Virus record (IMG/VR): IMGVR_UViG_3300010430_000333
Span: 1-30,872 of that record
Strand: one strand, 5' to 3'
DNA length: 30,872 nt
Origin: a virus
Each line of letters begins with the position of its first letter. The stretch's first letter is position 1. Below the pieces are notes generated by a model that was not told the origin of the DNA, did no database searches, and worked only from the letters and a program-made list of their open reading frames with translations. A program made the translations under genes and the position numbers. Below, in pieces: positions 6,510 to 28,873 of this stretch.

Positions 6510-6523
6510 ATAGGAATTTAAAC

Positions 6524-6871: not shown

Positions 6872-6877
6872 TCTACT

Positions 6878-6904
6878 CCCAGGGGCCAAACCCTGGGTTT
6901 TTCT
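6878..6904 (+). terminator. Rho-independent terminator T1
   Basis: CCCAGGG (6878-6884) pairs with CCCTGGG (6891-6897) around a six-base loop, followed at once by TTTTTCT (6898-6904). This is a textbook intrinsic terminator closing the capsid transcription unit. Its T tract runs straight into the GTAACACA box of the next late promoter at 6905. Confidence 0.88.
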
Positions 6905-6941
6905 GTAACACATGTCCGCCCGAAAGACATATATTAGTAAG
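6905..6941 (+). promoter_or_regulatory. Late promoter candidate P2 (GTAACACA-N14-ACATATATTAGTAAG)
   Basis: GTAACACA (6905-6912), 14 bases, then ACATATATTAGTAAG (6927-6941). It matches P1 and P3 in both boxes and in spacing, and begins on the first base after terminator T1. It would restart transcription for the fibre and tail genes from 6961 on. Its position between a terminator and a TAGGAG ribosome site makes it the best supported of the three copies. Confidence 0.68.
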
Positions 6942-6960
6942 CACTTAGGAGTTTAAAAGT

Positions 6961-8346: not shown

Positions 8347-8357
8347 ACAGGAGTATT

Positions 8358-8594
8358 ATGAACAATATACACGACATGCACTGCCTTTGCCGATTCTTCG
8401 ACGTAGAAGACGTAGTGCAGGCGCTATTACATAACGATGAAGAAGCCCTAGCCGAAATGCGAAGAGTCGACCTAGAGCTGAAGGATAGACTAGTCTTGAT
8501 CGAGCAGACAATGTTAAGTGGCGACGAGGCAGAGATAACCTCCCTAGTCTCTACCTTCACCGCACCAACTAAAGAAGACTTGGAGATGGAATAA
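8358..8594 (+). CDS. Small unknown protein between two fibre genes
   Basis: A 78-residue acidic, helix-prone protein with a His/Cys cluster near the N-terminus (HDMHCLCRFF, residues 5-14) followed by leucine-rich amphipathic helices (VVQALLHNDEEALAEMRRVDLELKDRLVLIEQTML). A good AGGAG site precedes the ATG, and its stop overlaps the next gene as TAATG, so it is very likely translated. Sitting between two related fibre proteins, it may be a fibre assembly chaperone, an inference from position only. No family was recognised. Confidence 0.65.
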   Translation: MNNIHDMHCLCRFFDVEDVVQALLHNDEEALAEMRRVDLELKDRLVLIEQTMLSGDEAEITSLVSTFTAPTKEDLEME

Positions 8595-9037
8595 TGGCAG
8601 GAGACAAAACCACCAGCGGTGGCCTAAACTTCACATATCCCAGCAAAGGCAGAGCCAATTTCTCTGGTCTATTCGACGTCCTTTGGGCCAAGATCTCAGC
8701 GCACGACCACTCCGGCAACGGCAACGGCACTACCTTAACTAACTCTGCCTTCACCGACCTAAGTATTAGGGTGGCGAAGCTTAACATACAAAACGACGAA
8801 TATCTAGATGCCTTAGACAATGCTGGTACTGGCCGAGTAGACATGATCAAAGTCAACTCCAGCGACGTAGTAGAATTAGGAACAGCCCCCCTGGCCCCAC
8901 ACTTTACCCTTACCGACGGAGTTACAGCCCCTGCCACAACCGCAGGACAAGCCCACCTCTATATCGATACGGCAGATGGAGACTTAAAAATAAAATTCGG
9001 TGACGGAACAGTCAAAACCATAACAGTGGATACCTAA
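8594..9037 (+). CDS. Short fibre-module protein related to the 461-aa fibre
   Basis: A 147-residue protein. Residues 9-39 (GGLNFTYPSKGRANF...ISAHDHS) match the N-terminus of the fibre encoded at 6961, including the His-x-His motif, and residues 77-99 (AGTGRVDMIKVNSSDVVELG) match its second module. It lacks the fibre repeat and long surface domain, ending instead in a compact beta tail (AGQAHLYIDTADGDLKIKFGDG, about residues 118-139) of a kind common at the ends of phage fibres. It may be a short companion fibre or an adaptor sharing the same docking site. Its start overlaps the preceding stop (TAATG). Confidence 0.72.
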   Translation: MAGDKTTSGGLNFTYPSKGRANFSGLFDVLWAKISAHDHSGNGNGTTLTNSAFTDLSIRVAKLNIQNDEYLDALDNAGTGRVDMIKVNSSDVVELGTAPLAPHFTLTDGVTAPATTAGQAHLYIDTADGDLKIKFGDGTVKTITVDT

Positions 9038-9038
9038 G

Positions 9039-9320
9039 ATGAAAAGAATAGCCCCAGGGTTCTTTAGCCCGACAGCAATCGGCGGAGTACTAGGTGGATT
9101 AGGTTCAGTATTCGGCAGTAAGCAGAAGTTTATAGATAACTCTCCTGTGCAACAGCAAATGCAAGCTAACCAAATCAAATCTCAGCAGGCAGAGCAAGCC
9201 AATGTTAGAGAGCAGCAAGCTAGCCAACAGCACCTAAAATCCCAGTCAGACGCAGCACGACAGCGTGTTGATGCCTTAGATCGCATCATCCGCACTTTCC
9301 AACAAAACTTGAGGGTATGA
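9039..9320 (+). CDS. Small Gln-rich protein, probably virion-associated
   Basis: A 93-residue protein with a Gly-rich, weakly hydrophobic N-terminus (GFFSPTAIGGVLGGLGSVFG, residues 7-26) and a Gln/Ala-rich coiled-coil stretch (residues 38-90). This resembles the small, tail-proximal or internal proteins that podoviruses encode just before their tail tube genes, but the resemblance is one of composition only. It starts one base after the preceding stop and ends three bases before the next gene, so it belongs to the tail operon. Confidence 0.65.
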   Translation: MKRIAPGFFSPTAIGGVLGGLGSVFGSKQKFIDNSPVQQQMQANQIKSQQAEQANVREQQASQQHLKSQSDAARQRVDALDRIIRTFQQNLRV

Positions 9321-9323
9321 TTA

Positions 9324-10289
9324 ATGAGACGGATGGAAAGACTTATTGCGCAGGTACGCCGATTATCAGATAACGAGGAGTTTGATGACGATTCCTCTAA
9401 TTCCCTCGGTATTACGACCCAGGAGATCTCTGAATACATTAACGATGCTCAAGACAATATACAGGCTGCCATCAGTCTAGCCCACCCTAAAATCTTTATA
9501 GAGACTACATTGTTTGACCTGGTGGCTAACCAAGAATTGTACGATCTGCCCTCTGATATCTTCTTAGACGGAAGAATAGTACACGTAGAAGCAAAGTTCT
9601 CTGAGCGAACAGCGGATTACACGGCCCTAAAGCAGAGACACATTAAGACCCGGCTACCCGACGTAAAGTCAGAGATCCCAGATGGGTACATTAGAATAGC
9701 TAAGAAGTTGGCTATACAGCCCATCCCATCAAGGTCCTGGACCAATGGTATTAGGTTGACTTATCAAAGACGTCTCCCTAACCTAGGTTTTAGGATAGGA
9801 CAAGTAACCGCCACGCAGTCAGCCGGTGGAGACCTAACACGTATAGATTTAAACGCTTCCCCTACCAAGGCTCAAGATACAGACCTACCTACACTTGCCT
9901 CTAACTACATAACTCAGTACGACGAGCTAACCATAGTTAACAAGAAAGGTGTGATTCAAGCCTCAGCAATTCCGGTAAGTACTTACGATGCAGACCTTGG
10001 GTATATAACCATTGAACCGGGTCACACCCTAGGCGCAACAGAATCCATTAGCGTAGACGATTACGTAGTTGGCGGAGACTTCAATACGACTCACTCGGAA
10101 GCTCCCGACACCTGCGAAAGATACCTAATAGCCTACGGTGCTTGGAAATGCTTGAAGTCCGACAGCATGGTTGATTCTAGAGATCAAGAGAACGAACTAG
10201 CAGCAATGTTGCAAGAGATAGTTAACTCTTTTAGAGAGATAGACGAAGACCAGATCGAACTAAGAATAGATACAGATTGGGTAATATAG
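9324..10289 (+). CDS. Tail adaptor / head completion protein (tail tube A-like)
   Basis: A 321-residue protein directly before the large nozzle-type gene, the usual order for podovirus adaptor then nozzle. The N-terminal half has the helical adaptor pattern (TTQEISEYINDAQDNIQAAISLAHPKIFIETTLFDLVANQELYDLPSDIF), with the phrase LYDLPSD that recurs in phage adaptor proteins of this class. About residues 160-240 are an inserted beta region, making it longer than T7 gp11. The C-terminus returns to helices (ERYLIAYGAWKCLKSDS). It would form a ring beneath the portal and connect it to the tail nozzle. The call is moderate and rests on order and pattern. Confidence 0.65.
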   Translation: MRRMERLIAQVRRLSDNEEFDDDSSNSLGITTQEISEYINDAQDNIQAAISLAHPKIFIETTLFDLVANQELYDLPSDIFLDGRIVHVEAKFSERTADYTALKQRHIKTRLPDVKSEIPDGYIRIAKKLAIQPIPSRSWTNGIRLTYQRRLPNLGFRIGQVTATQSAGGDLTRIDLNASPTKAQDTDLPTLASNYITQYDELTIVNKKGVIQASAIPVSTYDADLGYITIEPGHTLGATESISVDDYVVGGDFNTTHSEAPDTCERYLIAYGAWKCLKSDSMVDSRDQENELAAMLQEIVNSFREIDEDQIELRIDTDWVI

Positions 10290-12920
10290 ATGGCAGTAAC
10301 GCATGGCATAAGGAAATTTTACTCTTCATTCCGAGGCCTTAACGAGATCCTAGATGACGTAGTACGAGAGGCCGGATTTGCCACCGTAGCGGAAAACGTT
10401 AGAATTTTAGAGGATGGTGCACTATCCAAAAGAAGAGGATACAAGATTTTCGCAGAGAGTGAAGGTGGTTACGGAGTCATTGGTTTCGACAGGATCGACC
10501 CAGAAACCGGTATGATTACCCAGGAAATCCTAGTGTTGTCCGAGACTCTAAGAAGGATGCGGACAGCTACTATTACACTAACTAATGTCAACTCCGACGG
10601 CCAAGACATCAACGTCTCTATACAAGGGGATTCAACAGCTGATGTAGCTGCATCAGGTTGGGGCTCATCGCCTTGGGGTGCTTTTGCTTGGGGAGACGCA
10701 GCAGGAAGAGGTTTTACCCTCACCTTAGGTGTGGCTGCAGTAATCGACAACAATGGCGACACTGTAACGGACGAAAAGACCACAGTAGCTTACCTAGGCG
10801 ATGAGATAGAGAGTCCTGGCCTAACTATAGCCAGTCTAGTAACTTTCCTTAATTCTGGCACAGATGTTACAGCCTCTGCCACAGTAGATACTGCAACTCC
10901 AGCACCGTTTTTAAGATTATTAGACGGCCTCACAATCGAACCAGGTGAGGTTATAGAGTTAGTCTATTACTACACCGAGGATATCACCGCCGACTCAGCC
11001 GCAGGGTTTCCTCTAGGGTTCGCAGATTTCAAGACCAACGACCAAGCCAGACATGTAGACTATGCAATCTTTAACAGATCTGTTTACATAACCACAGGCC
11101 TAGACAAATTACAACAATACGACGGCCAGGCTCTGTTCCAAGCAGGTATGAAAAAAGGCACTATCCCGACTACAGCAACAGGGGGTGCAGGGCTTCCAGT
11201 AGGAGACTACCTATACAAGGTACAGCCAGTATTTAGAGACAGGAACGGAGCTTTCCATGAAGGAGCTATCAGCGACCCAAGTATTAGTCTAACAGCTGCC
11301 TCAGAAGAAATCGACGTAGTGGTCACCAACATAGAAGACGGTAACGGTTACGATTCTCGTGGCGGCCTAGCTCAGGGAGCACAGACACTCTCCCCAGTAA
11401 GTGGCGTAGTCACAATATCCTTGGATGATGGTTCAGGTGGAGCACACACAGTAGTATCAGGGGACAAAGTACGAGTTCTTAACAGAGACGTAGCTACCAA
11501 CGCTTACGCTGAGTATGTAGTTGTTACGACTACCACCAACTCTATTGATGTTGCCTCATCTGTCGACATAGATCTGAACGATAATGACATAGTCAGCACA
11601 GGCATAACATTAGATGTTTACCGCACTATAGCAGGTGGCACCACAGAGTATTTACTGGTGGAGTCACTTAACAACAACCCTTTTGCTACAACTCAAACCT
11701 TTACTGATAACACCGCAGATTCTGCCCTAGGTGCTAGGTTCTTGGAACCTCTAGCTCCACCGGCTGAACCACCTACGTGTCGATACATTACAACGTTTAA
11801 CAACTCCTTAGTATTAGGTTATCAGAAGACAGACCCAAACAAAGTGTTTTATTCAGAGCCCGATGATCCTACCAACTTCCCAGTTCTTAACAACTTCCTT
11901 ACGGAATCCAATGACGGCGGCACGATCACAGCCGTTACCCAGTCCAATGAAACTCTAGTGGTATTCAGAAAGCGCAGTATATTCCTAGTAACAGGAGACT
12001 TCGCCAGAGACTCTATCCGAGTTACCAACCTAAGTAGCGGCGGTATCGGGTGCTCTTCTCACTCGTCTGTCCAAGACATAAACGGGGTGATCTTCTTCTT
12101 AGGAGAACGAGGCGTGTATACCATGGCAGGGGCAGGGATACCTACCTTGATATCCAACCAAGTCATTAAGTCTCTAACAACAAAGAGGACCCTAGAAGCT
12201 GAGAGGCTACACTTTGACAGGGCTGTAGCCGTCCACCACATCCAGGACAAACAGTATCTCCTATATATTCCCGCTGAATCAGTAGATTCGGGCAATATCT
12301 ACAGTAATGAGAGTTCGTTGCTGTTAGCCTATGATTACGTTAAGGATGATTGGACCACCTGGAAAAATACCCATTTCTCATCAGGAGTAACCTACCAAGG
12401 AGACGATCTTTGGTTTAGTTCCAGAGAGTTACGAGTAGCTGATTCTCAGGTTGAGTACAGAGTATGGAAACAACACAATGACAACCGGCTTCATGATTAC
12501 GGAGATCAACTCGATCCTGTAGAATTCACATACGGTAGTAGTTGGGAGGCTGTGGGAAATCCCTCAGTAGCAAAGAAGTTTCTACGTGTAAAGCTCCATT
12601 CTTACACCGATGTCGATTCCCCCTTACCAGTATCGGCTTTCAATGTCGACGCTTCCACCGAGATAGACTACAAGGAGAATACCCCTCACTCGCAATTCTC
12701 GTTTAACTTCCCCGATAGAGGATCAACGTGGGACTCTAGGCCCTGGGATGAATTTACATGGGGTGGAGCACAGCAACCGACCTTTAAGACTAAACTACGA
12801 AAGGGTCAAGCCCGCTCTATGCGTCTAATCCTAGAAAACTCTCAGTATGATACGAATGTTATATTCACAGGTTGGGAAGTAGAATATGCTGCTCCACAAG
12901 GTAACACAATCAAGCGGTAA
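10290..12920 (+). CDS. Large tail nozzle / stabilisation protein (P22 gp10- or T7 gp12-type)
   Basis: An 876-residue, beta-rich protein next to the adaptor. The N-terminus (GIRKFYSSFRGLNEI...ENVRILEDGALSKRRGYKIF) is the ring-binding opening seen in such proteins. The centre (about residues 500-700) has a propeller-like series including NNSLVLGYQKTDPNKVFYSEP, NETLVVFRKRSIFLVTGD, GVIFFLGERGVYTMAG and SSLLLAYDYVKDDWTTW. The C-terminus (RKGQARSMRLILEN...GWEVEYA) is a typical ending. A Trp-rich phrase WGSSPWGAFAWG (residues 124-135) recurs as WDSRPWDEFTWG near residue 813. It would form the end of the short tail. P3 begins within its last codons. Confidence 0.77.
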   Translation: MAVTHGIRKFYSSFRGLNEILDDVVREAGFATVAENVRILEDGALSKRRGYKIFAESEGGYGVIGFDRIDPETGMITQEILVLSETLRRMRTATITLTNVNSDGQDINVSIQGDSTADVAASGWGSSPWGAFAWGDAAGRGFTLTLGVAAVIDNNGDTVTDEKTTVAYLGDEIESPGLTIASLVTFLNSGTDVTASATVDTATPAPFLRLLDGLTIEPGEVIELVYYYTEDITADSAAGFPLGFADFKTNDQARHVDYAIFNRSVYITTGLDKLQQYDGQALFQAGMKKGTIPTTATGGAGLPVGDYLYKVQPVFRDRNGAFHEGAISDPSISLTAASEEIDVVVTNIEDGNGYDSRGGLAQGAQTLSPVSGVVTISLDDGSGGAHTVVSGDKVRVLNRDVATNAYAEYVVVTTTTNSIDVASSVDIDLNDNDIVSTGITLDVYRTIAGGTTEYLLVESLNNNPFATTQTFTDNTADSALGARFLEPLAPPAEPPTCRYITTFNNSLVLGYQKTDPNKVFYSEPDDPTNFPVLNNFLTESNDGGTITAVTQSNETLVVFRKRSIFLVTGDFARDSIRVTNLSSGGIGCSSHSSVQDINGVIFFLGERGVYTMAGAGIPTLISNQVIKSLTTKRTLEAERLHFDRAVAVHHIQDKQYLLYIPAESVDSGNIYSNESSLLLAYDYVKDDWTTWKNTHFSSGVTYQGDDLWFSSRELRVADSQVEYRVWKQHNDNRLHDYGDQLDPVEFTYGSSWEAVGNPSVAKKFLRVKLHSYTDVDSPLPVSAFNVDASTEIDYKENTPHSQFSFNFPDRGSTWDSRPWDEFTWGGAQQPTFKTKLRKGQARSMRLILENSQYDTNVIFTGWEVEYAAPQGNTIKR

Positions 12921-12936
12921 TGACATAAATAAGTAA
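12901..12936 (+). promoter_or_regulatory. Late promoter candidate P3 (GTAACACA-N14-ACATAAATAAGTAA)
   Basis: GTAACACA (12901-12908) lies in the last codons of the nozzle gene, followed after 14 bases by ACATAAATAAGTAA (12923-12936). It is the third copy of the P1/P2 element with identical spacing. The next gene and the three ejection-type genes lie just downstream. Because the first box is coding here, its preservation is the more notable. Confidence 0.62.
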
Positions 12937-12955
12937 CCCCAAACAGGACGACGAT

Positions 12956-13294
12956 TTGAAATTTCGAACGATAAAACCATTCACTCAAGGGAGACCAGTA
13001 GAGGAGTACTTAGCAAATTCGTTACGTGCTGACTTGCTGGATCTAACAGATGGCCTAAGTCGAATCACATTACTAGATAACCTGGAGTCTTTTCAATATG
13101 AAGGCACTATTACTAACGGTACTGAAGCTGAAATACGCAATCCTTTATCCACTCCTCCTAGCGGTAGATTCATTATCAAGCATAGCGGTGATATTTCAAT
13201 TGTTGATGGTGATACGGCTTGGACTACAGATTTTGTCTACCTGAAGAACTCAGGTTCTGCGCCCGCTACAGTAAAAGTTATATTTTTTAAATAA
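12956..13294 (+). CDS. Unknown 112-residue virion-block protein with TTG start
   Basis: It reads from TTG with AGGACG about five bases upstream; no ATG lies nearby in frame and the first residues (KFRTIKPFTQGRPVEEYL) look like a real N-terminus. An N-terminal helical part (residues 14-45, VEEYLANSLRADLLDLTDGLSRITLLDN) is followed by a beta domain (ESFQYEGTITNGTEAEIRNPLSTPPSGRFIIKHSGDISIVDGDTAW...VKVIFFK). This pattern of a short coil plus small beta domain is common in phage structural operons, but no function could be assigned. It is the first gene after P3, with the ejection-type genes following. Confidence 0.65.
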   Translation: MKFRTIKPFTQGRPVEEYLANSLRADLLDLTDGLSRITLLDNLESFQYEGTITNGTEAEIRNPLSTPPSGRFIIKHSGDISIVDGDTAWTTDFVYLKNSGSAPATVKVIFFK

Positions 13295-13305
13295 GGAAAC
13301 GATTA

Positions 13306-14535
13306 ATGGCTAACGGAAATACCCAAGAAGAGCAGGAAGCAGCAGCACTACTCAAGAAGAGACAGGCATCGGCCGATCAACTAAGATCCGAGACTCAGCG
13401 CCGCTTCCAAGATATTCGAGGGCAGCAGGACTTAGACAGAGCAGCAGCCCAAAGACAAGCACAAGAAGTTTTCGGAGAAGGATCCCTAGGAAGAGTAGAA
13501 GAGGGTAGAGCGGGCGAAGTATCGGATCTACTAAACATCGGCAGACAACAGCTAGACACAGGCGCATCCGGCCTAGACGAGGCTATAGCCCGACGAAGAC
13601 AGACTATCTCTACAGGGGGACAAGATCCCTCTTTCCAGAGAATAGGCGAAGCAGCTCGAAGAGCCCAAGACGTTCAAACCCAGACCTCCTTACGACAACT
13701 ACGAGGAGAGCTTGGGTCGCAAGGCGTTCGTGGCGGAATCAATTTACAACAACAACTAGGAACCCTAGGCCGAGCCAACTTGGCAGAGTCCCAGCTACAG
13801 GGCCAACTAGCTCAAGCTCGACTAGCTAGATTAAGTGAAGCTGAATCGGCTGAAGAGGGTCTACAGCGTTCGCGCATCGATCAACAGAGAGGTGCTCTAG
13901 CGGCTCAGGCGTCTGGCATAGAAAGAGCTAGATCTGAGGAAGCGGGCAGAGTAGCCACCAACGTACAGCGCTCGCTCCAAGAACGACTAGGTCGATTACA
14001 GCTAGTAGAAGGGGCTGCCCAACGCGGTGTCCTAGAAAGATCAGCAGCAGCACAGGAAGTGGGCTCAGAGGCTCAACTACAATCTCAGCGTGAAGCAGCA
14101 GCAGAGTCTAACCGGATCGCTCTAATACAAGCCAATAAGCCGGCAGCAGCCCCAGTACAACAAGGTGGTAAAGTGCTCTGTACTGAGCTATGTGATCTAG
14201 GGTTACTTGATCCTTACCTACTAGAGGCTGACCTACTTTATGCTACCACTATTTCCCCAATCACCAAGGTTGGTTACTGGATCTGGGCTAAACCTTTAGC
14301 AGAGTCCCTAAGAACCTCGCCTATACTCACTAAGGTAGTTACACCATTCGTAAGAGCGTGGGCTACAGAGATGGCCTACAAAGTCGGCTACGTAAGAAAA
14401 GGCTCTATCCTAGGTAAACTAATGACTGTTACATGTGAGCCAGCTTGCTACCTACTAGGCAAAACTTTACTAGCCCTTAACCTTGTCAATATGGAAGAAA
14501 TAACTTCACATGTAATACTAGGGAGAAACTCATAA
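13306..14535 (+). CDS. Internal virion / ejection-type protein 1 with coiled coil and conserved C-terminal domain
   Basis: A 409-residue protein. Residues 1-280 are Gln/Arg/Glu/Ala-rich and almost wholly coiled-coil in character. Residues about 285-409 form a distinct domain starting at GGKVLCTELCDLGLLDPYLLEAD and continuing GYWIWAKPLAESLRTSPILTKVVTPFVRAWATEMAYKVG. This CTEL...GY.-WA.P...WA.EMAY pattern recurs in phage virion proteins near the tail genes; its role is not settled. The protein is probably carried in the capsid and released with DNA. AGGAAACG precedes the ATG, and the stop overlaps the next start (TAATG). Confidence 0.65.
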   Translation: MANGNTQEEQEAAALLKKRQASADQLRSETQRRFQDIRGQQDLDRAAAQRQAQEVFGEGSLGRVEEGRAGEVSDLLNIGRQQLDTGASGLDEAIARRRQTISTGGQDPSFQRIGEAARRAQDVQTQTSLRQLRGELGSQGVRGGINLQQQLGTLGRANLAESQLQGQLAQARLARLSEAESAEEGLQRSRIDQQRGALAAQASGIERARSEEAGRVATNVQRSLQERLGRLQLVEGAAQRGVLERSAAAQEVGSEAQLQSQREAAAESNRIALIQANKPAAAPVQQGGKVLCTELCDLGLLDPYLLEADLLYATTISPITKVGYWIWAKPLAESLRTSPILTKVVTPFVRAWATEMAYKVGYVRKGSILGKLMTVTCEPACYLLGKTLLALNLVNMEEITSHVILGRNS

Positions 14536-16094
14536 TGAGTCCTTTTGGTCAGAATAACGAAAGCATCCTAGAACAAATCAATGCGCAGCGTCGGCTACGT
14601 CAGAACCCTCTACCATCTGATGTTCCTCCCCCCAAGATGCCCCAACCTATACCGGTGTCCGTTCCTCCTCCACAGGACACCATGGGTCAGGCCGACGCTG
14701 CACTTTTCGCTGCCCAAGAGATATCACAACAGAGGCAAGCAAATGCACAAACAAGAGAGATCGAAGCCGCCGACGCTACACAACTCCTTGACGACGCTGA
14801 CCGCTTTGACCAGAACGCGGCCCAAGCACAAGCAGCCGCCCAGGATTCTCAGCAAATAGCGCAAGAGAATAGAGCCCAGGCTCAACAGCTCGCTGAGTTA
14901 CACCAACAGGAAGCCCAGGAAGACGACGCCCTAGCAGAACAAGCAGAAGAACAAGCTCGTTCCGCGGACGTAATTAGGATTTCTCAAGACCCAGCAGTAG
15001 TAGAACAAGTCAAACCAGATCTAGCGGCAGCCATCGGAGTAGACCCCAAGTCTATCGATTCCGAGGTAGAAGACACTTTCCGAAATGTACAAGACATTCT
15101 TTCCGGTCAACTAGACCGTAACAACAAGAGACAATCAGAATTAGCACGTAAGCTAGAATCTGGCAGCGGTTTTACCTCCAAGGACAAGATAGCCCTAGGC
15201 ATGGCAGCACTACTTCCTATCATTATAGGAGCAGCTACAGGTAATATAGGACGAGGACTTACAGCAGCAGGCCAAAGCTTGAGTGCCATAGCTGGTCAAC
15301 AACAAGCTCAACAAAAAGCCGATAGAGCCGAACTGAAAGGTTTAGAGGGTTCCCAGCTTCAAATAGCAAAGCAATTACAATCAAGCCTAGGTGGCAAGAT
15401 TGCAGGTAAGCGACAAGCGGCAGCCTTAGTTAACGAACAGAAACAAGCAATCCAACAAGCCACTACGCAAGACCTAAGAGATCAAGGAATTAAGCTTAAG
15501 AACATCGCTTTGATAGAGAAGGCCAAGCAGGACAAAGTATTAACAAAATCTAAACTTGCTGACTTCAACGAGAAACTCAATTCCATAGTTAGCGGCAAAC
15601 CAGAGAAGGAAGGCAAAATCTCAGGAGACCAGCGAAAGGCTGCAACATTCTCCGTTAGAATGAGTCAAGCAGAAGACATTTTCGGAGTACTAGAAGACAA
15701 AGGTTTCAGCCCAGTAGAAGGTGAAGGATTCGTAGCCAACAGACTTAAGCGTGAAGACAGGCAATCTTACGAGCAATCACAACGTAACTTCGTAAACGCC
15801 TTGTTAAGAAGAGAATCTGGAGCAGCAATTTCCGAGGGAGAATTCGAGAGTGCGAACCAACAATACTTTTCTCAGCCAGGAGATTCGGCACAAGTAGCAG
15901 CACAGAAGAGAGCTAACAGAGCAGTTGCCATAGCAGGACTACAAGCAGAGGCAGGAGATACCGCAATAGGGGACATTTACTCTAGACTCGGTAACCTAGC
16001 ACCAGTATCAAGAGTAGAACAATCACAGTCACAGGTAGACTTCTCGCAGATGTCCGATGAGGAACTACAGCGCATCATTCAAGGGGGAGAATAG
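14535..16094 (+). CDS. Internal virion / ejection-type protein 2
   Basis: A 519-residue protein, Ala/Gln/Glu-rich with long coiled coils (about residues 60-150 and 255-340). One hydrophobic, Gly-rich segment (ALGMAALLPIIIGAATGNIG, about residues 222-241) could insert in a membrane. The N-terminal 50 residues are Pro-rich. Size, composition and position after the nozzle gene match the internal core proteins that podoviruses inject to build a channel through the cell envelope. No enzyme motif such as a transglycosylase was seen. The start overlaps the previous stop (TAATG). Confidence 0.62.
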   Translation: MSPFGQNNESILEQINAQRRLRQNPLPSDVPPPKMPQPIPVSVPPPQDTMGQADAALFAAQEISQQRQANAQTREIEAADATQLLDDADRFDQNAAQAQAAAQDSQQIAQENRAQAQQLAELHQQEAQEDDALAEQAEEQARSADVIRISQDPAVVEQVKPDLAAAIGVDPKSIDSEVEDTFRNVQDILSGQLDRNNKRQSELARKLESGSGFTSKDKIALGMAALLPIIIGAATGNIGRGLTAAGQSLSAIAGQQQAQQKADRAELKGLEGSQLQIAKQLQSSLGGKIAGKRQAAALVNEQKQAIQQATTQDLRDQGIKLKNIALIEKAKQDKVLTKSKLADFNEKLNSIVSGKPEKEGKISGDQRKAATFSVRMSQAEDIFGVLEDKGFSPVEGEGFVANRLKREDRQSYEQSQRNFVNALLRRESGAAISEGEFESANQQYFSQPGDSAQVAAQKRANRAVAIAGLQAEAGDTAIGDIYSRLGNLAPVSRVEQSQSQVDFSQMSDEELQRIIQGGE

Positions 16095-16095
16095 A

Positions 16096-17880
16096 ATGGC
16101 AGCAGCAGACGAAGCACGCAAAGAACTAGCTCGCAGAGAGTTGGCCAAAAGACAGGGTGGAGCACCTCAACCAGCTCCGGCACCCGAACCAATTTCACAA
16201 TTCGAGTCAGCTAAACAAGGCTTAGCTCAAGGTGTATCCTTCGGCTTTGCGGACGAAGCTTCAGGTGGAATAGGGGCCATTACCGATACAGTTACCAGTT
16301 TCATCAACGGTGACCTAGAGTGGGGCGACTTCACAGAATCTTATAGACAGCGCGTAGGCGAAGCCCGCGATGCAGTATCGGCAGCACAAGAAGCTAACCC
16401 CAAGACCTTTATGGCGGGACAAGCCGGCGGAGCTATAGCCTCAGGATTAGCAACAGGCGGCGCAGGTGCAATAGGCAAAGGACTAGGCGCAGCAACAAAA
16501 CTAGGCGCAGGACTAGGCGCAGCAGCAGCAGCCGGCGCAAGCGAAGCAGATCTAACCCGCGGAGAAGTAGGCGAATTAGCAGAAGATGCCCTGTTAGGTT
16601 CAGCCATAGGAGCAGTAACAGGCGTTGGCGGAGAACTCGTAGGAAAAGCACTAGGAGCCACAGGACGATTCGTAGGTCAATCCCAGATTGGACAAAAGCT
16701 TAGACAAGTAGCCTCTAACGTCATATCCCCCAAGGGAGCAGCTGCCTCACTAGCAAAAGAAGCACGCGCAAGTGGCAAAAAAGCATTCTCCCAAGTAGAA
16801 AACAAGAATCTGGAATCTGGCATTGCCGGACTCCAAAAGCGCGGAGTCATCCCCAGCGAGAGAGACACTTTCCTAGCAACTTCCAGGAAGGAGCTATCTC
16901 AAGCAGTCAAAGGCGAAAGGCAGACTCTAGGAAAATCCATAGAGAATCTAGCTACCCTAGCAGACGAATCAGGCGTAGATTTCGGATCTAACAAACTAGG
17001 CTTAAATAACCTACGAAAGGTTACGAAAGAGATACGTAAAGGATCCACAGCTGATGAATTCAACGTAGCACTAGACGAAGTATCTGATAGACTCACCAAC
17101 GAGAGCTTTAAAGCTACGGACCTAGCGGGCATCAAACAAGAATTAGATAACGTCATCCGAGTGGGTAACAAACTAGGTTCCTTAAAGAAGTCCCAAAGTA
17201 AAACCCTCATGGGTGTGCGTAAGCAAGTCAAAGAGGCTCTAGAGTCTAAGATAGATGAAGCGGCAGCCAATAACCCCCAGATGCAGCAAGAGCTAAACTC
17301 TCACGGCATGAAGAAATTCGCCGACCTCAACGACGCATTCTCCGACACTATCCAAGTAGACAGAGTATTAGATGACGCTGTAGCCCTAGCAGACGAAGCA
17401 GCCGGACGCCTTGAGGTGGGCAGCCTAGCAGACCAAATATCGGACCTAACTAGAATGGAAGGTGTAGTATCTGCGATCACAGGAGGAGCCGGCAAACTTG
17501 TAGGCAAAGCAGCAGAGGGAGTAACGAAGAAAGCAGGCCCAGCACTAGGAGCCGCAGGCAGAGGAATAGGCGCGACAGCGCGAGCAGCAGCCAGGCGTGA
17601 AAAAGAGTCAGCACTAGTAGCCCGTACCATTTACCAGTCAATAGACGAAGACAACATCATCAACGATGAAGGCGAACGACAAGCCCACGTCAGCCGAATC
17701 ATGAGAAACAGCACACTCCCTCACTCTCAGAAGTTTAGGGAAATCAACATGATGCAAACCACAGGCAAGATGAACCCCGAGTCTATCCCAGCCAGGGACA
17801 AGAAGCAGATACTAAAAGAGATTGATGCTGAAAACAGAGCCTTACAAGAGGAAGTGATGAATCAGCTTAGGGGATTATGA
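16096..17880 (+). CDS. Internal virion / ejection-type protein 3 with Gly/Ala hydrophobic region
   Basis: I choose the ATG at 16096 (594 residues) because AAGGGGGAG lies just upstream; an in-frame start at 16057 would overlap the preceding gene by 38 bases and has no better site. Residues about 30-45 contain FGFADEASGG, and residues about 105-195 are a long Gly/Ala-rich hydrophobic tract (GGAIASGLATGGAGAIGKGLGAATKLGAGLG...), resembling glycine-zipper membrane segments. The rest is helical with many charged residues. It is probably an ejected virion protein that interacts with the inner membrane. Another Gly/Ala patch lies near residue 470. It is the last long gene of the rightward block. Confidence 0.64.
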   Translation: MAAADEARKELARRELAKRQGGAPQPAPAPEPISQFESAKQGLAQGVSFGFADEASGGIGAITDTVTSFINGDLEWGDFTESYRQRVGEARDAVSAAQEANPKTFMAGQAGGAIASGLATGGAGAIGKGLGAATKLGAGLGAAAAAGASEADLTRGEVGELAEDALLGSAIGAVTGVGGELVGKALGATGRFVGQSQIGQKLRQVASNVISPKGAAASLAKEARASGKKAFSQVENKNLESGIAGLQKRGVIPSERDTFLATSRKELSQAVKGERQTLGKSIENLATLADESGVDFGSNKLGLNNLRKVTKEIRKGSTADEFNVALDEVSDRLTNESFKATDLAGIKQELDNVIRVGNKLGSLKKSQSKTLMGVRKQVKEALESKIDEAAANNPQMQQELNSHGMKKFADLNDAFSDTIQVDRVLDDAVALADEAAGRLEVGSLADQISDLTRMEGVVSAITGGAGKLVGKAAEGVTKKAGPALGAAGRGIGATARAAARREKESALVARTIYQSIDEDNIINDEGERQAHVSRIMRNSTLPHSQKFREINMMQTTGKMNPESIPARDKKQILKEIDAENRALQEEVMNQLRGL

Positions 17881-18005
17881 TAAAGATAATAGAAAAAATA
17901 CTAAGAAAGCTAGCAATCTTCTTCGTGTTACGCTGGGTAGCCTCAAAATCAGAGGCCACCGGCGCTACACTGGGTGTTCTTTTTGATCTACTTGATGATC
18001 TCTGA
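17877..18005 (+). CDS. Small amphipathic 42-residue protein, overlaps convergent gene
   Basis: The ATG overlaps the stop of the preceding gene as ATGA and has AGGGG six bases upstream, so coupled translation is plausible. The 42 residues begin with a basic amphipathic/hydrophobic helix (MIKIIEKILRKLAIFFVLRW), then a polar turn and an acidic leucine-rich end (GVLFDLLDDL). It could be a small membrane-active or lysis-related peptide, or a minor virion component. Its last 18 bases overlap the 3' end of the dNMP kinase-sigma gene on the other strand. A hairpin lies within its coding region. It is short, so chance cannot be excluded. Confidence 0.5.
   Translation: MIKIIEKILRKLAIFFVLRWVASKSEATGATLGVLFDLLDDL
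17936..17960. terminator. Hairpin between convergent operons, possible bidirectional terminator
   Basis: GGTAGCCTC (17936-17944) pairs with GAGGCCACC (17952-17960) with one mismatch and a seven-base loop. It lies between the rightward and leftward blocks, where a terminator is expected. No T run adjoins it on either strand; a TCTTTTT stretch starts about 17 bases further on the + strand after a small ACAC/GTGT stem. The terminator function is therefore tentative. Confidence 0.35.
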
Positions 18006-19028
18006 ATAATAATCACCGAGGTCCTCTCTAAGCTTCTTGTAAATAGAGTGCAGCCTTCGTCGTGAATAGCCTGCGGTTATCTCAAGCTCTTTCCCTATCT
18101 CCTTATGTTTGCATCCTTGGCTACGCAAGGTGAATATCTTTTTATCTAAGGGGGACAGGCGGGATACAGCTTCTTCGATCACACCACCTAGGTCAAGTGT
18201 CTCAGAGTCAAGGGGCTTTGTAGAACTATACCCATCAACACCGGCCTCACTGAAGCTTATGTATTTGTTATAAGTAGACCACTTACGACGGCGATTCTGA
18301 GCAGTAAAATAAGTTATTGAGTACGCAAAGGTCGATAACTGGCAAGTGAAGTTAAATCTACTAGGCAACAACTCCAAGATCTTACATAGGGCTTCCGAGG
18401 CAAAATCCTCTATATCTACCTGACTAAATACGTGTTTACGGCAGAGGTTAGATACCCTAGGCCTTAGTTCTGTGTAGAGGTCACCTAGAGCCTCTTGGTT
18501 TCCCATTATCGCCGATAGTATTCTAGCACGTGCCTCCAGATCTTTCTCACTCGTTCGATTAGGAATAACATAGTCAAAATTGTAGCTATCGAGTGCACAC
18601 TCGGTTGCACAGGATGACCCATGATCGCCGCGCCCAACAATGCGCACCGTCCTAGTCTCCGAAATATCTTTAAGCGCTTCCAGCTCATCGGGGTACCTAC
18701 AGTCGGTTACAACAAAACATTCTTTGTTAGATTTGTTAATCTTCTCCACGACCTTCTTGACCCAGTAGTTAGGGTCTATGGTTCTGTAGTAGCTACCGAC
18801 AGATACCAGTAAGTCTCTAGGTGACTGTAGTTTACCACCGATGACCATCGGAGTATCCTTCAAATCGCGGTTATGGAAAAAATCGATATGCAGGTCTACC
18901 AGGTCGGAGCACATCTCCTTTAGAGGGTCGGCAAAACTAACTCTTTCCCAGTCACCGACCAACATAGCTGCTAATGTGTCCTTTCCGGCCCCCGCCTTCC
19001 CAGACAAAGCAATTATTTTCTTTTTCAC
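17988..19028 (-). CDS. Fusion of dNMP kinase and sigma-factor-like domains
   Basis: A 346-residue two-part protein. Residues 1-175 match T4 gp1/T5-type deoxynucleoside monophosphate kinase: P-loop GKAGAGKDT (10-18), SFADPLKEM (31-39), DPNYWVKKV (85-93), FVVTDCRYPDELEAL (105-119) and IVGRG. Residues about 180-258 resemble sigma70 region 2 (VDIEDFASEALCKILELL, then LSTFAYSITYFTAQNRRRKW). Residues about 282-340 resemble region 4, with LSPLDKKIFTLRSQGCKHKEIGKELEITAG and a helix-turn-helix. So one chain would phosphorylate dNMPs and bind core RNA polymerase and promoter DNA. GGAGGAAAC precedes the ATG; a CCCCCAC/GTGGGGG hairpin lies between it and the previous gene. Methionine 175, exactly at the junction, could be an internal start but has a weak ribosome site. 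It is last in the pF operon. Confidence 0.83.
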   Translation of the reverse strand: MKKKIIALSGKAGAGKDTLAAMLVGDWERVSFADPLKEMCSDLVDLHIDFFHNRDLKDTPMVIGGKLQSPRDLLVSVGSYYRTIDPNYWVKKVVEKINKSNKECFVVTDCRYPDELEALKDISETRTVRIVGRGDHGSSCATECALDSYNFDYVIPNRTSEKDLEARARILSAIMGNQEALGDLYTELRPRVSNLCRKHVFSQVDIEDFASEALCKILELLPSRFNFTCQLSTFAYSITYFTAQNRRRKWSTYNKYISFSEAGVDGYSSTKPLDSETLDLGGVIEEAVSRLSPLDKKIFTLRSQGCKHKEIGKELEITAGYSRRRLHSIYKKLREDLGDYYSEIIK

Positions 19029-19044
19029 TTGTTTCCTCCAAGAA

Positions 19045-23744: not shown

Positions 23745-24599
23745 CTTACCACCTCCTTGTGTTGGTGTCTCTTCATTATTATACTCCTTCTTGTGTTTAC
23801 TGTCAACATACTTCTTCATGCATTCTTTGTGAAAATCTCTATGGGGACAACCTCCGAAATCCCAAATAGTCTCTTGGTACTGAGTGTTAACGGAATGCGC
23901 AAAACCTTCGATACCTAACTCATCATAAACCTCTAAGACTTTGATGGCCTCAAGAGCGTCCGCCACAACACTTTCTACTACGGCATCTACTTCGCCCCAA
24001 GTGGGTTCAGCGGACAGAATGTTTACCGGCTTCTTTTTAATCTTCTTGAATAACTGGTTATGTTGAATTCTAACTGCCTCATGATCTCCTCTAAAAGCAT
24101 GGGCGTATAAGTTTAACTGGGGATCCTCTGCTAGGGTTTCAGGGGTCTTGTAAGCATAAGCCTTGTTGCCTATGGTCTTGTGATCCTGTATCACCAGGAT
24201 AGAGTCGTCCATGTTGACCACGTCAACCTTACCAATAAACTTGGGTAGGTCAGGATGTAGTTCAATGGTGAACGGTGCTTCTATGGTTACCTCGTCCGGT
24301 AAACCGCCAGAAAGCTCTACATAGTCCGCCCAGAACTTGAATACTTTACCGTCCCATGCTGGCACGTAGAATTCCTTAGCTTCCTCGGACACAAAGACTT
24401 CCTTAGGATCAAGCTCTCTCCGCTCCAACCACTTTTCAAAGTTCTCGTGGACAAAGCTACCAAATGTGGTAGCCTCAGTGGGTCCTCCTCTTTTGCCCAA
24501 TACCTTTTCACAAACCCAGGCGAAGGGTGATCTCTTGATCGTCTTCACCTGGCTAATGGAAAGATGAGTCAATCCATATTTTTTAAAAAGGGGATGCAT
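23511..24599 (-). CDS. PD-(D/E)XK exonuclease of the RecB/Cas4 type
   Basis: A 362-residue protein. Motifs in order: LSISQVKTIKRSPFAWVC (13-30), TFGSFVHENF (45-54, the GxxxH motif), FIGKVDVV (121-128, D126), VIQDHKT (136-142, the D-x-K pair D139/K141) and DPQLNLYAHA (159-168, QxxxY). These define the RecB-like nuclease fold. C30 with C251 and C260 (CPHRDFHKEC) look like a reduced version of the four-Cys iron-sulphur arrangement of Cas4/AddB. It would degrade or resect DNA ends in recombination or host DNA breakdown. The nuclease fold ends near residue 262; residues 263-285 are a low-complexity linker containing promoter pD, and residues 286-362 are a separate module that may also be made alone. 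The ATG overlaps the previous stop (TAATG). Confidence 0.83.
   Translation of the reverse strand: MHPLFKKYGLTHLSISQVKTIKRSPFAWVCEKVLGKRGGPTEATTFGSFVHENFEKWLERRELDPKEVFVSEEAKEFYVPAWDGKVFKFWADYVELSGGLPDEVTIEAPFTIELHPDLPKFIGKVDVVNMDDSILVIQDHKTIGNKAYAYKTPETLAEDPQLNLYAHAFRGDHEAVRIQHNQLFKKIKKKPVNILSAEPTWGEVDAVVESVVADALEAIKVLEVYDELGIEGFAHSVNTQYQETIWDFGGCPHRDFHKECMKKYVDSKHKKEYNNEETPTQGGGKMPIDLHELVGKAREYYADQGLTKFDLADAVVEAVAGNLKDKKTNVVSIRDGEGGDLIYNQLLNRVAEMGISIYKKVR
23778..23806 (-). promoter_or_regulatory. Perfect consensus sigma70 promoter pD inside the exonuclease gene
   Basis: TTGACA (complement of 23801-23806), exactly 17 bases, TATAAT (complement of 23778-23783). It is a full match to the consensus, in a linker-coding segment (VDSKHKKEYNNEE) between the nuclease domain and its C-terminal module, upstream of a strong ribosome site and in-frame ATG. 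Confidence 0.8.
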
Positions 24600-25120: not shown

Positions 25121-25972
25121 TTATTTGCTCCTCGTTTGCACTTTTGGTTGTTGTAAATACGCGTCTTCGACCGCTCGCTCCTTTAACTCTAGCTCGAACT
25201 CTCTACCCTGCTCAGCATAGATTTTACCTAACTTGTCTAACAAGAGGACTTTAGCTTCTGTCAAGGTGTAGTAACAGTCTCTAAGATTACAAGCAGCTAT
25301 GTATACGTTCTTGTGTCTAAAGCCTTTACGCCCTCCAGTCTTTATAAAACCTAACGTAGCTTTATGAATCTTAGCACGATAACCACTCTTTTGTATTTTG
25401 AAATACTCCTCATCAGCCATTTGTTTAACATCATTGCACACACTGTAGGGTTCGTCACACTGTCCCATCAACCACACTACCAGGTCATGAATGCTAACTC
25501 TCTTAGTAGTACTAACCAAAGTCTGCCTAGCTTCGTTCTGGTGGGTACCGCCTCCTAAGCGTGTAAACCTAGATGGATTTTTACAGGACTCATCTACCCC
25601 AGCAACTGCCGCATAGAGCCATCTAACAATGTGGTCGTACTCTGCACGATCAGCCAGGGGTTCCTCCAAGGAAACCACAAAGTGGTAGGACTTGTTGCCA
25701 GAGAACACACAGGTGGAATAAGGCAAGTCAATACTATCAACATACGCCTTCTGTTTCCCCGTAGGCAGTTCATCAAACTCCAATAAGAAGTTACGAAATT
25801 TGCTCACTGACTTATCTGACCTCTTGGTTCCCTCCTTCAAAGGGTTCAGTGTAACATAGCAGTGGTCTGTGTTTGCCTCATCAAGTGAGACACTCTTAGT
25901 TTCGTAAGGATTCTTTGAGACACAAACCTTGTCCCCCTCATCGAACAGCATCTTTGTATAATCTTCAATCAT
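25121..25972 (-). CDS. Archaeo-eukaryotic-type primase (AEP/PrimPol family)
   Basis: A 283-residue protein with the AEP signature: an acidic metal motif in NFLLEFDELP (61-70), SGNKSYHFVVSL (91-102, the sGxSxH motif) and DESCKNPSRFTRLGG (127-141). The region after about residue 205 (TGGRKGFRHKNVYIAACNLRDCYYTLTEAKVLLL) resembles the helical PriCT module found beside such primases. It would make primers for replication. Its ATG overlaps the stop of the Clp-like gene (ATGA), and the helicase gene lies just beyond, so primase, AAA+ protein and helicase form one translational block. The separation of primase and helicase into two proteins differs from the common fused primase-helicase of many phages. 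Confidence 0.8.
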   Translation of the reverse strand: MIEDYTKMLFDEGDKVCVSKNPYETKSVSLDEANTDHCYVTLNPLKEGTKRSDKSVSKFRNFLLEFDELPTGKQKAYVDSIDLPYSTCVFSGNKSYHFVVSLEEPLADRAEYDHIVRWLYAAVAGVDESCKNPSRFTRLGGGTHQNEARQTLVSTTKRVSIHDLVVWLMGQCDEPYSVCNDVKQMADEEYFKIQKSGYRAKIHKATLGFIKTGGRKGFRHKNVYIAACNLRDCYYTLTEAKVLLLDKLGKIYAEQGREFELELKERAVEDAYLQQPKVQTRSK

Positions 25973-27261
25973 GATCCGAACCCTACCCTCTTAGTTTTAT
26001 TCTGACTAGCACCCTGCTGCAATTCGTATACCCTTTCTACTTCCTGTACATTTATTCGTTTCTTCGTTGTAGCTGCACCAACCTCGTCCAACAAGTCTAT
26101 TTGAGCATCTGGAGCGTGTCTACCTTCGATCTCAGAACCAAGGTCGACTATTCTCTCCAAAGCAGCCTTAGAGTACTTAACACCGTGGTGATCCTCGTAC
26201 AGAGACTTTATCCCCTTGAGTATATCTAACACGTCTTGTCGTTCTAGGTCCTCTAGTACTACAGGTTGAAAACGTCTAGCTAAGGCAGCATCAGCTTTAA
26301 TGATGTTGTATTCGTTTAGCGTAGTAGCTCCTATGATCTGTGTAAGACCTCTAGCCAAAGTAGGCTTAATCATGTTTGCAGCGTCGTTGCCCCCCTCACA
26401 ATCTCCAGCTCCTACCAAGGTGTGTAGTTCATCACAAAAGGCGATGATGTCAGGGTTGGCCTCCAATTCGTTTATAACTCCTGTTAATCTCTCCTCAAAC
26501 ATTCCTCTGTATTTGGTTCCTGCTATCATCAAACTTAAGTCTATGCACACCAAGGTTTTGTCATGTAACTTAACGCAATGAGCTTCCTTTTTGTCAATGG
26601 AAAGAGCTAATCCTTCTACCAAAGCAGACTTACCAACGCCGGCAGGCCCTAATATTACTGGATTGTTCTTCCTTCTCCTACCTAGGATTTGAATAACTCT
26701 TTGAATTTCTCTTTTTCTTCCAATGACAGGATCTATCAGCCCATCAGCAGCCATCTTAGTCAGGTTCTTGCAATACAGGTCTAGAAAGGGAGTCGCACTT
26801 TCCTTTGGTTTCGCCTTTGGTGGAGGCTTAGCTGCAAATGGTGTAGTAGGAAAGATAAGATCCTCAGATGATTTTTTAAGGTCATCAATAAGCTTATCAA
26901 GATCAACATCAGCGCAGGCAAGGAGGTTCTGTACATCCAGACTCTGAATCAGTATCTTCCTTAGTAGTAGAGTGATAGACCCGAAAGGGGGCATCTCTTT
27001 AAGGATTTCATTCATTACAGAACAGTACTCACCTTCCCAAGGATGTGATTCTAGTTCAAACTCTTGATCAGTCTCTCGGTAAATTCTAGCCAACCTATCT
27101 TCAGTGATTAGGTGGTTAGCCATGATACGAATTATTCGTGTATTTGGGCAGCTAACAGTAGCAAACAGAGCATGAACAGGTCTAATATGATCAGCCCCAT
27201 AGTACGCAGCTATTCGACCAGCGTACTTTAACATCTCTTTTACTTCGTCATTCAAATTCAT
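25969..27261 (-). CDS. Clp N-domain plus single AAA+ ring ATPase (ClpA/B/C D1-like)
   Basis: A 430-residue protein. Residues about 1-130 resemble a Clp N-terminal domain (ADHIRPVHALFAT at 23-35). Residues about 165-415 are a ClpB/ClpC D1 module: DPVIGRKREIQRVIQILGRR (177-196), Walker A GPAGVGKS (205-212), pore loop GTKYRGMFEERL (248-259), Walker B IIAFCDELHTLVGAG (272-286), sensor 1 IIGATTLNEY (309-318) and Arg finger ALARRFQPV (326-334). The second ring, the ClpB middle coil and the ClpP-docking loop of D2 are missing; the C-terminus only carries a VGFGS tail. It would be a ring ATPase that unfolds or remodels proteins. Set between primase and helicase genes, its target is probably a replication protein (inference). 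Walker A ends in Ser rather than Thr. TAGGAG precedes the ATG. Confidence 0.87.
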   Translation of the reverse strand: MNLNDEVKEMLKYAGRIAAYYGADHIRPVHALFATVSCPNTRIIRIMANHLITEDRLARIYRETDQEFELESHPWEGEYCSVMNEILKEMPPFGSITLLLRKILIQSLDVQNLLACADVDLDKLIDDLKKSSEDLIFPTTPFAAKPPPKAKPKESATPFLDLYCKNLTKMAADGLIDPVIGRKREIQRVIQILGRRRKNNPVILGPAGVGKSALVEGLALSIDKKEAHCVKLHDKTLVCIDLSLMIAGTKYRGMFEERLTGVINELEANPDIIAFCDELHTLVGAGDCEGGNDAANMIKPTLARGLTQIIGATTLNEYNIIKADAALARRFQPVVLEDLERQDVLDILKGIKSLYEDHHGVKYSKAALERIVDLGSEIEGRHAPDAQIDLLDEVGAATTKKRINVQEVERVYELQQGASQNKTKRVGFGS

Positions 27262-27270
27262 TTAAAACTC

Positions 27271-28578
27271 CTAAGTTTTTAGCCCTGATAAATCTCTGTC
27301 CATTCCAATCCAGCGAGCTCTTACCCCGCCAACTCGTTTTCTTTCTGCTTTGCCGAACCCTAAGGAGTATAGTTCCTTAGTGAACTTGCATATCATCCCT
27401 GGGGGCTTCCTCTGCAGCTCCATCCACTCTCTGTAATGATTATATAACACCTGAACATTATTATCAACCTTACCGGGATTAAGTTCGAAATCGTCTACCC
27501 ACTGCTCCAAGGTACTCATGGTCCTAAGTTCCTCTTGGTGAGCCTCTAACGCCTCTCTAACCTTAAGAATAGGGTTCAAATCTAATTCACGAACTCCCTG
27601 CCAAACCTTAAGGAAATCTATAGGGTTTTCTGTCTTAAGTCTCTCACCGTCAACCCACTTCTCACCAGTTATGGTAGATAGATCGGCCATATCCTCCAAT
27701 TCCAACTCTACGAACCTCCGCATCCCTGTATTATCAAAGATAAGGTCAGACAAAGGACGGTTAGATGTTCCTAGGAAAGTGCAGTTTTGTGGGATAGTGT
27801 CAATGTCTTGGGACCTCATGCCTCGGGCACTAAGTGTACTAGCGGTGATTACGTTCTTCATAGACTCAATGTCTGTACGTCCTGCTCCCTGCATCTCATC
27901 GAAAATACCAATGAAGTGCTCAGAGAAGGCCTTCCGAAAGAATGAATCACGGAATACGTCCAACTGCAAATGGAGAACGAATTCCTTCAGGGGTTTAACC
28001 AAACAATCAAGTGTAACACTCTTTCCCGTACCGTGCTTCTTCGAGAACAAGATAGGCATTATGTGGTGCTCTACCTGTAACCCCTCAATTTTACGTTTCG
28101 TTTGCCAGATGAAACATTCGAAGACAGTTCTAGCAAAGTACTTCTTTTCTTTATCCGCTGAGGGGAAGAGGGCATCAATGAATCTATCAAGCTCCTCTCC
28201 ACCAACATCGGCTCTGTAACGGAGAGTGTTAGATAGCCGACAAAGCTTTTCCGCCTTGTTGTCGTACAGTAGCTCCTTTAGCTGGTTCTGCAAATCAGAA
28301 CGATTTAACCTGTTAGGGCTAGCCACCTTGAATTTTGCAGCAAAGAGCCTGTACTCCTGTTGCACCTTAGTAATAAATACGTCCCTAGAAATTCCAGGGG
28401 ATTCTCTCCAATCAATGGACCCATCGAAACGGAGGTTGATTTTGTGTTGACGAACGAATTTCTCGACGTAACTATTTTGCTGCTCCAGAACCAGCATCTT
28501 CTCGTCTCCGCCCTCTCCTGACTCTAATTCAGCAAAAAGCTTCTCCTTCAGTTCTTCTGGTAACTCTTCATAACTCAT
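27271..28578 (-). CDS. SF3/VirE-like replicative helicase
   Basis: A 435-residue protein with the P-loop set of viral SF3/D5-like and VirE-like helicases: Walker A SKKHGTGKS (179-187), Walker B HFIGIFDEMQ (221-230), a motif C-like FLGTSNRP (268-275) and a likely Arg finger in NTGMRRFV (283-290). The N-terminal 160 residues lack a primase site, agreeing with a separate AEP primase two genes on. The C-terminal 100 residues look like a winged-helix module (VLYNHYREWM...FTKELYSLGFGKAERKRV). It would unwind the replication fork as a hexamer. AGGAGG sits seven bases before the ATG; the gene ends nine bases before the Clp-like gene. Confidence 0.82.
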   Translation of the reverse strand: MSYEELPEELKEKLFAELESGEGGDEKMLVLEQQNSYVEKFVRQHKINLRFDGSIDWRESPGISRDVFITKVQQEYRLFAAKFKVASPNRLNRSDLQNQLKELLYDNKAEKLCRLSNTLRYRADVGGEELDRFIDALFPSADKEKKYFARTVFECFIWQTKRKIEGLQVEHHIMPILFSKKHGTGKSVTLDCLVKPLKEFVLHLQLDVFRDSFFRKAFSEHFIGIFDEMQGAGRTDIESMKNVITASTLSARGMRSQDIDTIPQNCTFLGTSNRPLSDLIFDNTGMRRFVELELEDMADLSTITGEKWVDGERLKTENPIDFLKVWQGVRELDLNPILKVREALEAHQEELRTMSTLEQWVDDFELNPGKVDNNVQVLYNHYREWMELQRKPPGMICKFTKELYSLGFGKAERKRVGGVRARWIGMDRDLSGLKT

Positions 28579-28636
28579 TTAACACCTCCTATATATCCTT
28601 GGCCTTGTCCATTAATGTTATTCATACCCATATTTG

Positions 28637-28873
28637 TTACAAGACGTGGTTTGCTATGCGCATAAGAATTGCAGCGGCGAACGTTAAAGGTATTATTAAG
28701 GTCGCCCCTAAGGTAAGTATGCATCCTAAGGTGTTTATAGTTTGGTTAGCGTCGGCCCTGGTGCAAGTTGTCCCAGCACACCTAGAAAAGCACCTGTCGA
28801 GGTAAGCCTCTTGATCTCTTAGGTGGGCTCGCATATCTCTTCTGAATTTACGGTTTCTTTTTCGGTTACACAT
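28637..28873 (-). CDS. Small basic membrane protein
   Basis: I use the ATG at 28873 (78 residues), with GGAGG eight to nine bases upstream, rather than upstream in-frame starts whose ribosome site would abut them. The N-terminus is very basic (CNRKRNRKFRRDMRAHLRD), residues about 23-42 hold three Cys (DRCFSRCAGTTCTR), and residues about 53-74 form a membrane segment (TLGCILTLGATLIIPLTFAAAIL). It overlaps the preceding gene by eight bases. A tail-anchored, DNA- or RNA-binding protein at the membrane is one possibility. No family was recognised. Confidence 0.58.
   Translation of the reverse strand: MCNRKRNRKFRRDMRAHLRDQEAYLDRCFSRCAGTTCTRADANQTINTLGCILTLGATLIIPLTFAAAILMRIANHVL

Follow-up and report, generated by a model that had tools for sequence, protein, structure and literature searches.

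An uncultured virus of bacteria, known from a 30.9-kb virus record, carries a single gene in which a dNMP kinase is continued, in the same reading frame, by a sigma factor of the ECF type. The fusion recurs in related phages, and the late genes of this phage group are accompanied by a strand-biased motif of fixed spacing. We put at about three in four the probability that the product is a two-domain protein, with a C-terminal late sigma factor for the host RNA polymerase and an N-terminal dNMP kinase. Neither sigma factors nor kinases of this kind are new in phages; for the joining of both we found no report in a literature search that mostly covered work outside subscription journals, in line with the preliminary description of this DNA, which knew of no described protein of such kind.

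Phage T4 couples DNA copying to particle production via its sliding clamp, and how the same coupling is reached in smaller phages without an RNA polymerase of their own is, to our knowledge, largely an open question. Here one chain unites a DNA-precursor enzyme with an apparent starter of late transcription, and candidate promoters can be named. With a single protein and just three short sites on DNA, one could test whether late transcription is linked directly to the supply of nucleotides. Throughout the text, the window means the whole stretch of DNA that was analysed, 30,872 nt in length.

One reading frame for a kinase and a sigma factor

The reading frame runs unbroken on the minus strand from a GTG at 19028 to a stop at 17988 of the window. 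The kinase-sigma fusion proposed in the preliminary description was borne out, both halves scoring above curated profile cut-offs within one open frame, and the motifs quoted there (GKAGAGKDT, DPNYWVKKV, VTDCRYPDE, DIEDFASEALCKILELL and LSTFAYSITYFTAQNRRRKW) are all present in the translation. The features of the gene are as follows.

17988-19028, minus strand: fusion gene, dNMP kinase followed by ECF-type sigma factor, 346 aa, GTG start, with full-length relatives
19035-19039, minus strand: Shine-Dalgarno sequence GGAGG of the fusion gene, 6 nt upstream of the GTG start
18507-19028, minus strand: dNMP kinase half, residues 1-174 (PF21448, phrog_139; PDB 3ch4 and 1dek)
18975-19001, minus strand: P-loop GKAGAGKDT, residues 10-18; among the relatives only A14 varies, being Ser in two
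17991-18497, minus strand: ECF-type sigma half, residues 178-346 (TIGR02937, phrog_1740; Foldseek matches to 1or7 and 5wuq)
18282-18479, minus strand: sigma region 2, residues 184-249 (PF04542, 26.4 bits, cut-off 24.0; TM 0.88 on 4lup_A)
18030-18179, minus strand: sigma region 4 with helix-turn-helix, residues 284-333 (PF08281, 30.2 bits, cut-off 25.7)

A search with the terminase led to relatives, two of them large: a 39.4-kb contig (3300017963_000451, locus L020; hereafter G1) and a 38.2-kb contig (3300035698_012105; hereafter G3), the latter with a 127-bp terminal repeat, so that its genome is probably complete. In both, the fusion is present in a single frame, and its product is 45% identical to the window protein. 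A profile scan added a third distinct phage, L024, with a fusion at 51% identity, together with a second contig encoding the G1 protein. In these relatives the fusion is full length and occupies the same genome position, with the neighbouring gene order kept; identities among the four phages are 47-59% for the kinase halves and 34-45% for the sigma halves. The search for the same fusion in related phages, which the preliminary description had called for, therefore succeeded, yielding three more distinct phages whose fusions are 45-51% identical to the window protein. That a frameshift or a mis-assembly has fused two genes is accordingly ruled out as far as sequence allows, given an uninterrupted fusion in those three phages and in the second contig of one of them, recovered from several metagenomes with the gene order preserved.

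The arrangement appears confined to this group. Among 148 kinase ORFs at 147 loci, gathered by pattern-based scans of viral and genome collections, a sigma tail was found on the kinases of this group alone, with the proviso that such scans rely on short peptide patterns and may miss remote fusions. No match covering 80% of the fusion was found in 50,697 phage genomes, a DNA polymerase pattern scan of viral contigs found no relatives, and a scan of viral contigs for sigma-only relatives found none. The nearest sigma factor in phage records, MT836009, was set aside, being not clearly of phage origin and sitting among Bacteroidetes-like SusD/TonB genes.

The kinase half matches phrog_139 (E=8e-41) and PF21448 (38.8 bits, cut-off 27.1); the former is matched in all four phages and the latter exceeds its cut-off in three. 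A family profile run against PDB sequences retrieved phosphomevalonate kinase (3ch4, 1e-9) and the T4 dNMP kinase (1dek, 4e-6). The P-loop, YWV and TDxRxPxE motifs expected of phage dNMP kinases of phrog_139 and PF21448 are in place: the P-loop GKAG(A/S)GKDT, the W89- and V90-type positions and TD-x-R-x-P-x-E are kept in all four phages, the W109-type position being Cys in the window protein. The N-terminal half is probably an active dNMP kinase. A different dNMP kinase fusion, with a dCMP deaminase domain as partner, lies on the Desulfovirgula thermocuniculi contig L118 (3813-4958).

The sigma half scores 63.3 bits against TIGR02937 (sigma70-ECF, cut-off 42.9) and matches phrog_1740, a family of late sigma factors, at E=6e-20 (3e-13 to 4e-21 across the four phages); phiEco32 gp36 (2e-45) and 7-11 gp47 (1e-38) match the same family. 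For this half, the family profile retrieved SigW (2e-7), and also AlgU and E. coli sigma-E, from PDB sequences. The score against TIGR02937 is above the cut-off in the window, L016 and L017; the Pfam cut-offs are narrowly missed by both regions in L016 and by region 4 in L017. The preliminary description had read a sigma70-like segment with region 2 and a region 4 helix-turn-helix and had suggested a profile search: both regions stand in the window protein, each above its Pfam cut-off, and the assignment is now narrowed to the ECF (group 4) type, these two regions occurring alone without region 1.1 or region 3. Sigma factors of phrog_1740 usually, not necessarily, stand alone, and the window sigma does not. 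By its sequence, the sigma half would be expected to bind core RNA polymerase.

It had further been suggested that Met175, at the junction, might serve as an internal start for a free sigma domain. This we consider unlikely, because no Shine-Dalgarno sequence precedes it, the methionine is missing near the L024 junction, and in L017 the methionines are displaced.

The junction between the two halves

An AlphaFold2 model of the chain, built from a five-row alignment, is of moderate confidence (pLDDT 69.7, pTM 0.56), so that the mutual placing of the two halves is not fixed by it. With the same moderate confidence it displays the sigma2 and sigma4 folds expected of ECF factors: sigma2 helices at 178-197, 203-224 and 231-256, sigma4 at 280-336, and between them a loose linker (252-277) scoring below 50. 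Foldseek with the whole model against the PDB gave E. coli sigma-E (1or7) and SigW (5wuq) as best matches, and region 2 alone superposed on region 2 of sigma-E (4lup_A) with a TM of 0.88 of the target, at 1.3 A. Against viral models kinase models predominate, the best match being A0A811AA94 (368 aa, 28% identity over 215 columns).

In the model, only three residues separate the end of the last kinase helix (161-174) from the start of the first sigma helix (178-197). The alignment holds no indel at this junction in any of the four proteins, while the kinase lid and the sigma2-sigma4 linker vary in length. From these two observations we infer a stiff joint, and as almost no linker separates the halves, they probably form one folded unit.

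Such a joint bears on a hypothesis akin to the suggestion in the preliminary description that late transcription could be tied to nucleotide pools: the sigma factor may be gated by nucleotides, the kinase half sensing the ATP, dNMP or dNTP state and thereby freeing or blocking the sigma half. Late transcription would then begin only with enough replication precursors, or when the substrate runs out, and the phage would time its late genes by its dNTP supply. A rigid, ungapped junction across four proteins whose halves share only 34-59% identity speaks in favour, as does the precedent of bacterial ECF factors with regulatory extensions, N-terminal ones included (PMC8103513). We nevertheless think gating unlikely: the catalytic motifs are kept, which a pure sensor would not need, and simple structural packing can also yield a fixed spacing. 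A stiff joint allows gating without demonstrating it.

The halves might instead act independently, the fusion doing nothing but save a gene start and fix the dose; in a variant of this reading, the kinase may be losing its role and serving as a stabiliser. Two separate constraints would be in keeping with the somewhat slower evolution of the kinase half (47-59% identity, as against 34-45% for the sigma half). In phage phiEco32, a single operon holds the sigma factor gp36 and the kinase gp34 as distinct neighbouring genes, at the corresponding end of the leftward cluster, so that joint production suffices there without any fusion. Set against this are the short, invariant junction and the fact that four divergent phages have kept every kinase motif. 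On balance, we regard a mere carrier as possible and hold that reading tentatively.

Genome plan and candidate late promoters

The rightward genes of the window (1-17880) encode packaging, capsid and tail, and the leftward genes (30408-17988) replication. The fusion gene is the last leftward gene and faces the end of the late cluster; a 42-aa plus-strand ORF (17877-18005) after the last late gene overlaps its 3' end on the opposite strand. At the head of the leftward cluster lie near-consensus sigma-70 sites, TTGACA-17-TATACT in G1 and TTGACA-17-TATATT in G3, in regions where chance matches are frequent. A T7-type RNA polymerase was considered as the late polymerase and rejected: PF00940, the one family searched for, was not found in the window, G1 or G3, the T7 control being positive. 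G1 and G3 each contain a single ECF-sigma match.

Several other features of these genomes were recorded. The gap before the leftward cluster holds repeated elements, GTGTCCC(GG) / CCGGGACAC in four to six copies in the window (30509-30851) and other repeats in G1 (10473-11105), and these are possible origin or regulator sites. A stem-loop with a conserved inner GCTGCTATTAATACGCGTAAG-like sequence directly follows the major capsid gene (window 6460-6505, G1 24400-24435, G3 8255-8295). Among the replication genes, window 25969-27261 (minus strand) encodes a ClpA/ClpB-like AAA+ protein of 430 aa (phrog_4871, 2e-80), which tblastn detected in G3 and did not find in G1. Upstream of the structural module, G1 carries genes for a cytidylyltransferase (PF02348, 12307-13035) and an MptE-like/DUF115 protein (PF01973, 14245-15483; also G3 36755-37999), that is, sugar-modification genes in phages of 38-39 kb.

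The late genes of the window and its relatives share a strand-biased motif of fixed spacing, GTAACA-N16-ACAT, first seen in the gaps between late genes. Its sites in the window are listed below.

1506-1531, plus strand: candidate late promoter GTAACA-N16-ACAT where the terminase gene ends, ahead of gene 1615-1857
6905-6930, plus strand: candidate late promoter, before gene 6961-8346
12901-12926, plus strand: candidate late promoter ahead of gene 12956-13294, with a -35 element that falls within the end of coding sequence 10290-12920
28615-28640, minus strand: weak candidate, exact GTAACA-N16-ACAT ahead of the primase/helicase-like gene 27271-28578 and oriented like the fusion gene; its matrix score equals background

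The motif was spotted by eye in these same genomes, and the following counts are therefore descriptive: TAAC-N17-ACAT occurs 6, 6 and 11 times in the window, G1 and G3 (1.0, 1.2 and 1.4 in shuffles), 22 of the 23 on the late strand and with 17 alone standing out among spacings of 8-29, and GTAAC-N17-ACAT occurs 4, 3 and 7 times (0.19-0.29 per shuffle), with 13/14 on the late strand. In a fairer test, both window strands were scanned with a matrix derived from the six G1 sites only. The top scores of 27.2, 23.3 and 21.7 bits belonged to the sites at 1506, 6905 and 12901, and the next score was 9.5; each of the three sites is on the late strand, at the end of a late gene or in a gap between two. 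With the first two matrix columns removed they scored 25.2, 23.3 and 22.9 bits (next 8.0), whereas 300 shuffles reached 20.0 at most and other loci, 1.6 Mb in all, no more than 14.5.

Each of these three window sites has a G1 counterpart at the corresponding place, and common descent thus accounts for part of a similarity that amounts to 64/90 identical motif columns and 20/36 identical spacer positions, one -35 overlapping conserved coding sequence. The recurrence of the motif at unrelated places within one genome, six in G1, is the stronger argument. In G3 the element has drifted, most sites having GTAACG or GTAACT as their -35, and the G1 matrix scores them at no more than 14.2. At the place of the weak site at 28615-28640 no motif was seen in G1 or G3; that site could give positive feedback on the sigma factor.

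A phage-specific promoter before late genes, which is a trait of phrog_1740 sigma factors, is thus found here as a sequence motif. The late sigma role suggested in the preliminary description gains support from this motif, with its ECF geometry and a layout near that of the proven promoters of Salmonella phage 7-11 gp47. One may object that an alternative sigma factor of the host reads the motif, the fused half acting otherwise, for example as a titrating inhibitor of the host RNA polymerase; an AAC in the -35 element and about 17 nt to the -10 are common among bacterial ECF promoters. This seems to us quite improbable. A strict form of the motif, sought in 2.9 million viral contigs, occurred in six stretches, five of them from this phage group; regions 2 and 4 are both retained in the fused half; and its phrog_1740 relative 7-11 gp47 reads GTAAtg-16-aCTA directly (PMC8948821).

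We therefore return to the late sigma factor joined to a kinase. On this proposal the fusion would be made early, from putative host sigma-70 promoters, being the gene with which the leftward replication cluster ends. The C-terminal ECF-type half would bind the host core RNA polymerase and take it to the late promoters of the rightward packaging and structural module, reading, as the sequences suggest, the GTAACA-N16-ACAT motif, while the N-terminal kinase would supply dNTP precursors for replication. At the least, the fusion would fix both halves in one-to-one and simultaneous production.

Relation to known systems

A close parallel is 7-11 gp47, which guides the core RNA polymerase of E. coli to late promoters of the form GTAAtg-(16)-aCTA; a sigma-70 promoter is not used by this factor, which is in competition with sigma-70 itself (PMC8948821). 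Both it and the window sigma are ECF-type factors with a region 4 and members of phrog_1740, and GTAACA-16-ACAT has the same layout and the same GTAA as the 7-11 promoters. The two phages are also alike in their early genes, read from host sigma-70 promoters (putative ones in our group), and in a sigma gene deep in the leftward cluster. The 7-11 protein differs in standing alone, with 185 aa and about 20% identity in the alignment, and belongs to a different phage group; a gene annotated as dNMP kinase lies some 5 kb from the gp47 gene, not fused to it.

Escherichia phage phiEco32 brings the same two families together, its gp36 sigma belonging to phrog_1740 and its gp34 dNMP kinase to phrog_139. 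Like the fusion, they are found on the 3' side of their leftward cluster, which faces the late genes, and they are near neighbours; unlike it, they are separate genes in reversed order (sigma, gp35, kinase). The pairing of kinase and sigma factor is thus seen elsewhere, whereas the fusion is not. The window sigma also differs from gp36 itself, which reads the single-element promoter tAATGTAtA and is without a recognisable region 4 (PMC8948821). A distant structural relationship to the phiEco32 group is hinted at by window 9324-10289, which matches the Pfam family SU10_adaptor, the adaptor from a phiEco32-like phage, at 44 bits (cut-off 27).

On the kinase side, the T4 gp1-type dNMP kinase (1dek) and the phosphomevalonate kinase fold (3ch4) have the P-loop, YWV and D-R motifs in common with the fusion. 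Both are without a sigma domain, and T4 gp1 carries extra sequence between P-loop and YWV motif, in which the window kinase differs. Among bacterial sigma factors, ECF41, ECF42, ECF36 and others resemble the fusion in carrying an extra domain in the same chain. In the portions consulted of two accounts (PMC8103513, PMC8999054), the extensions described are regulatory, anti-sigma or membrane parts, with no nucleotide kinase and no phage late sigma factor named.

Further sigma-promoter pairs in phages of the phiEco32/7-11 style have been predicted (PMC8948821). The fusion and its motif would add one such predicted pair, and possibly an orthogonal sigma tool.
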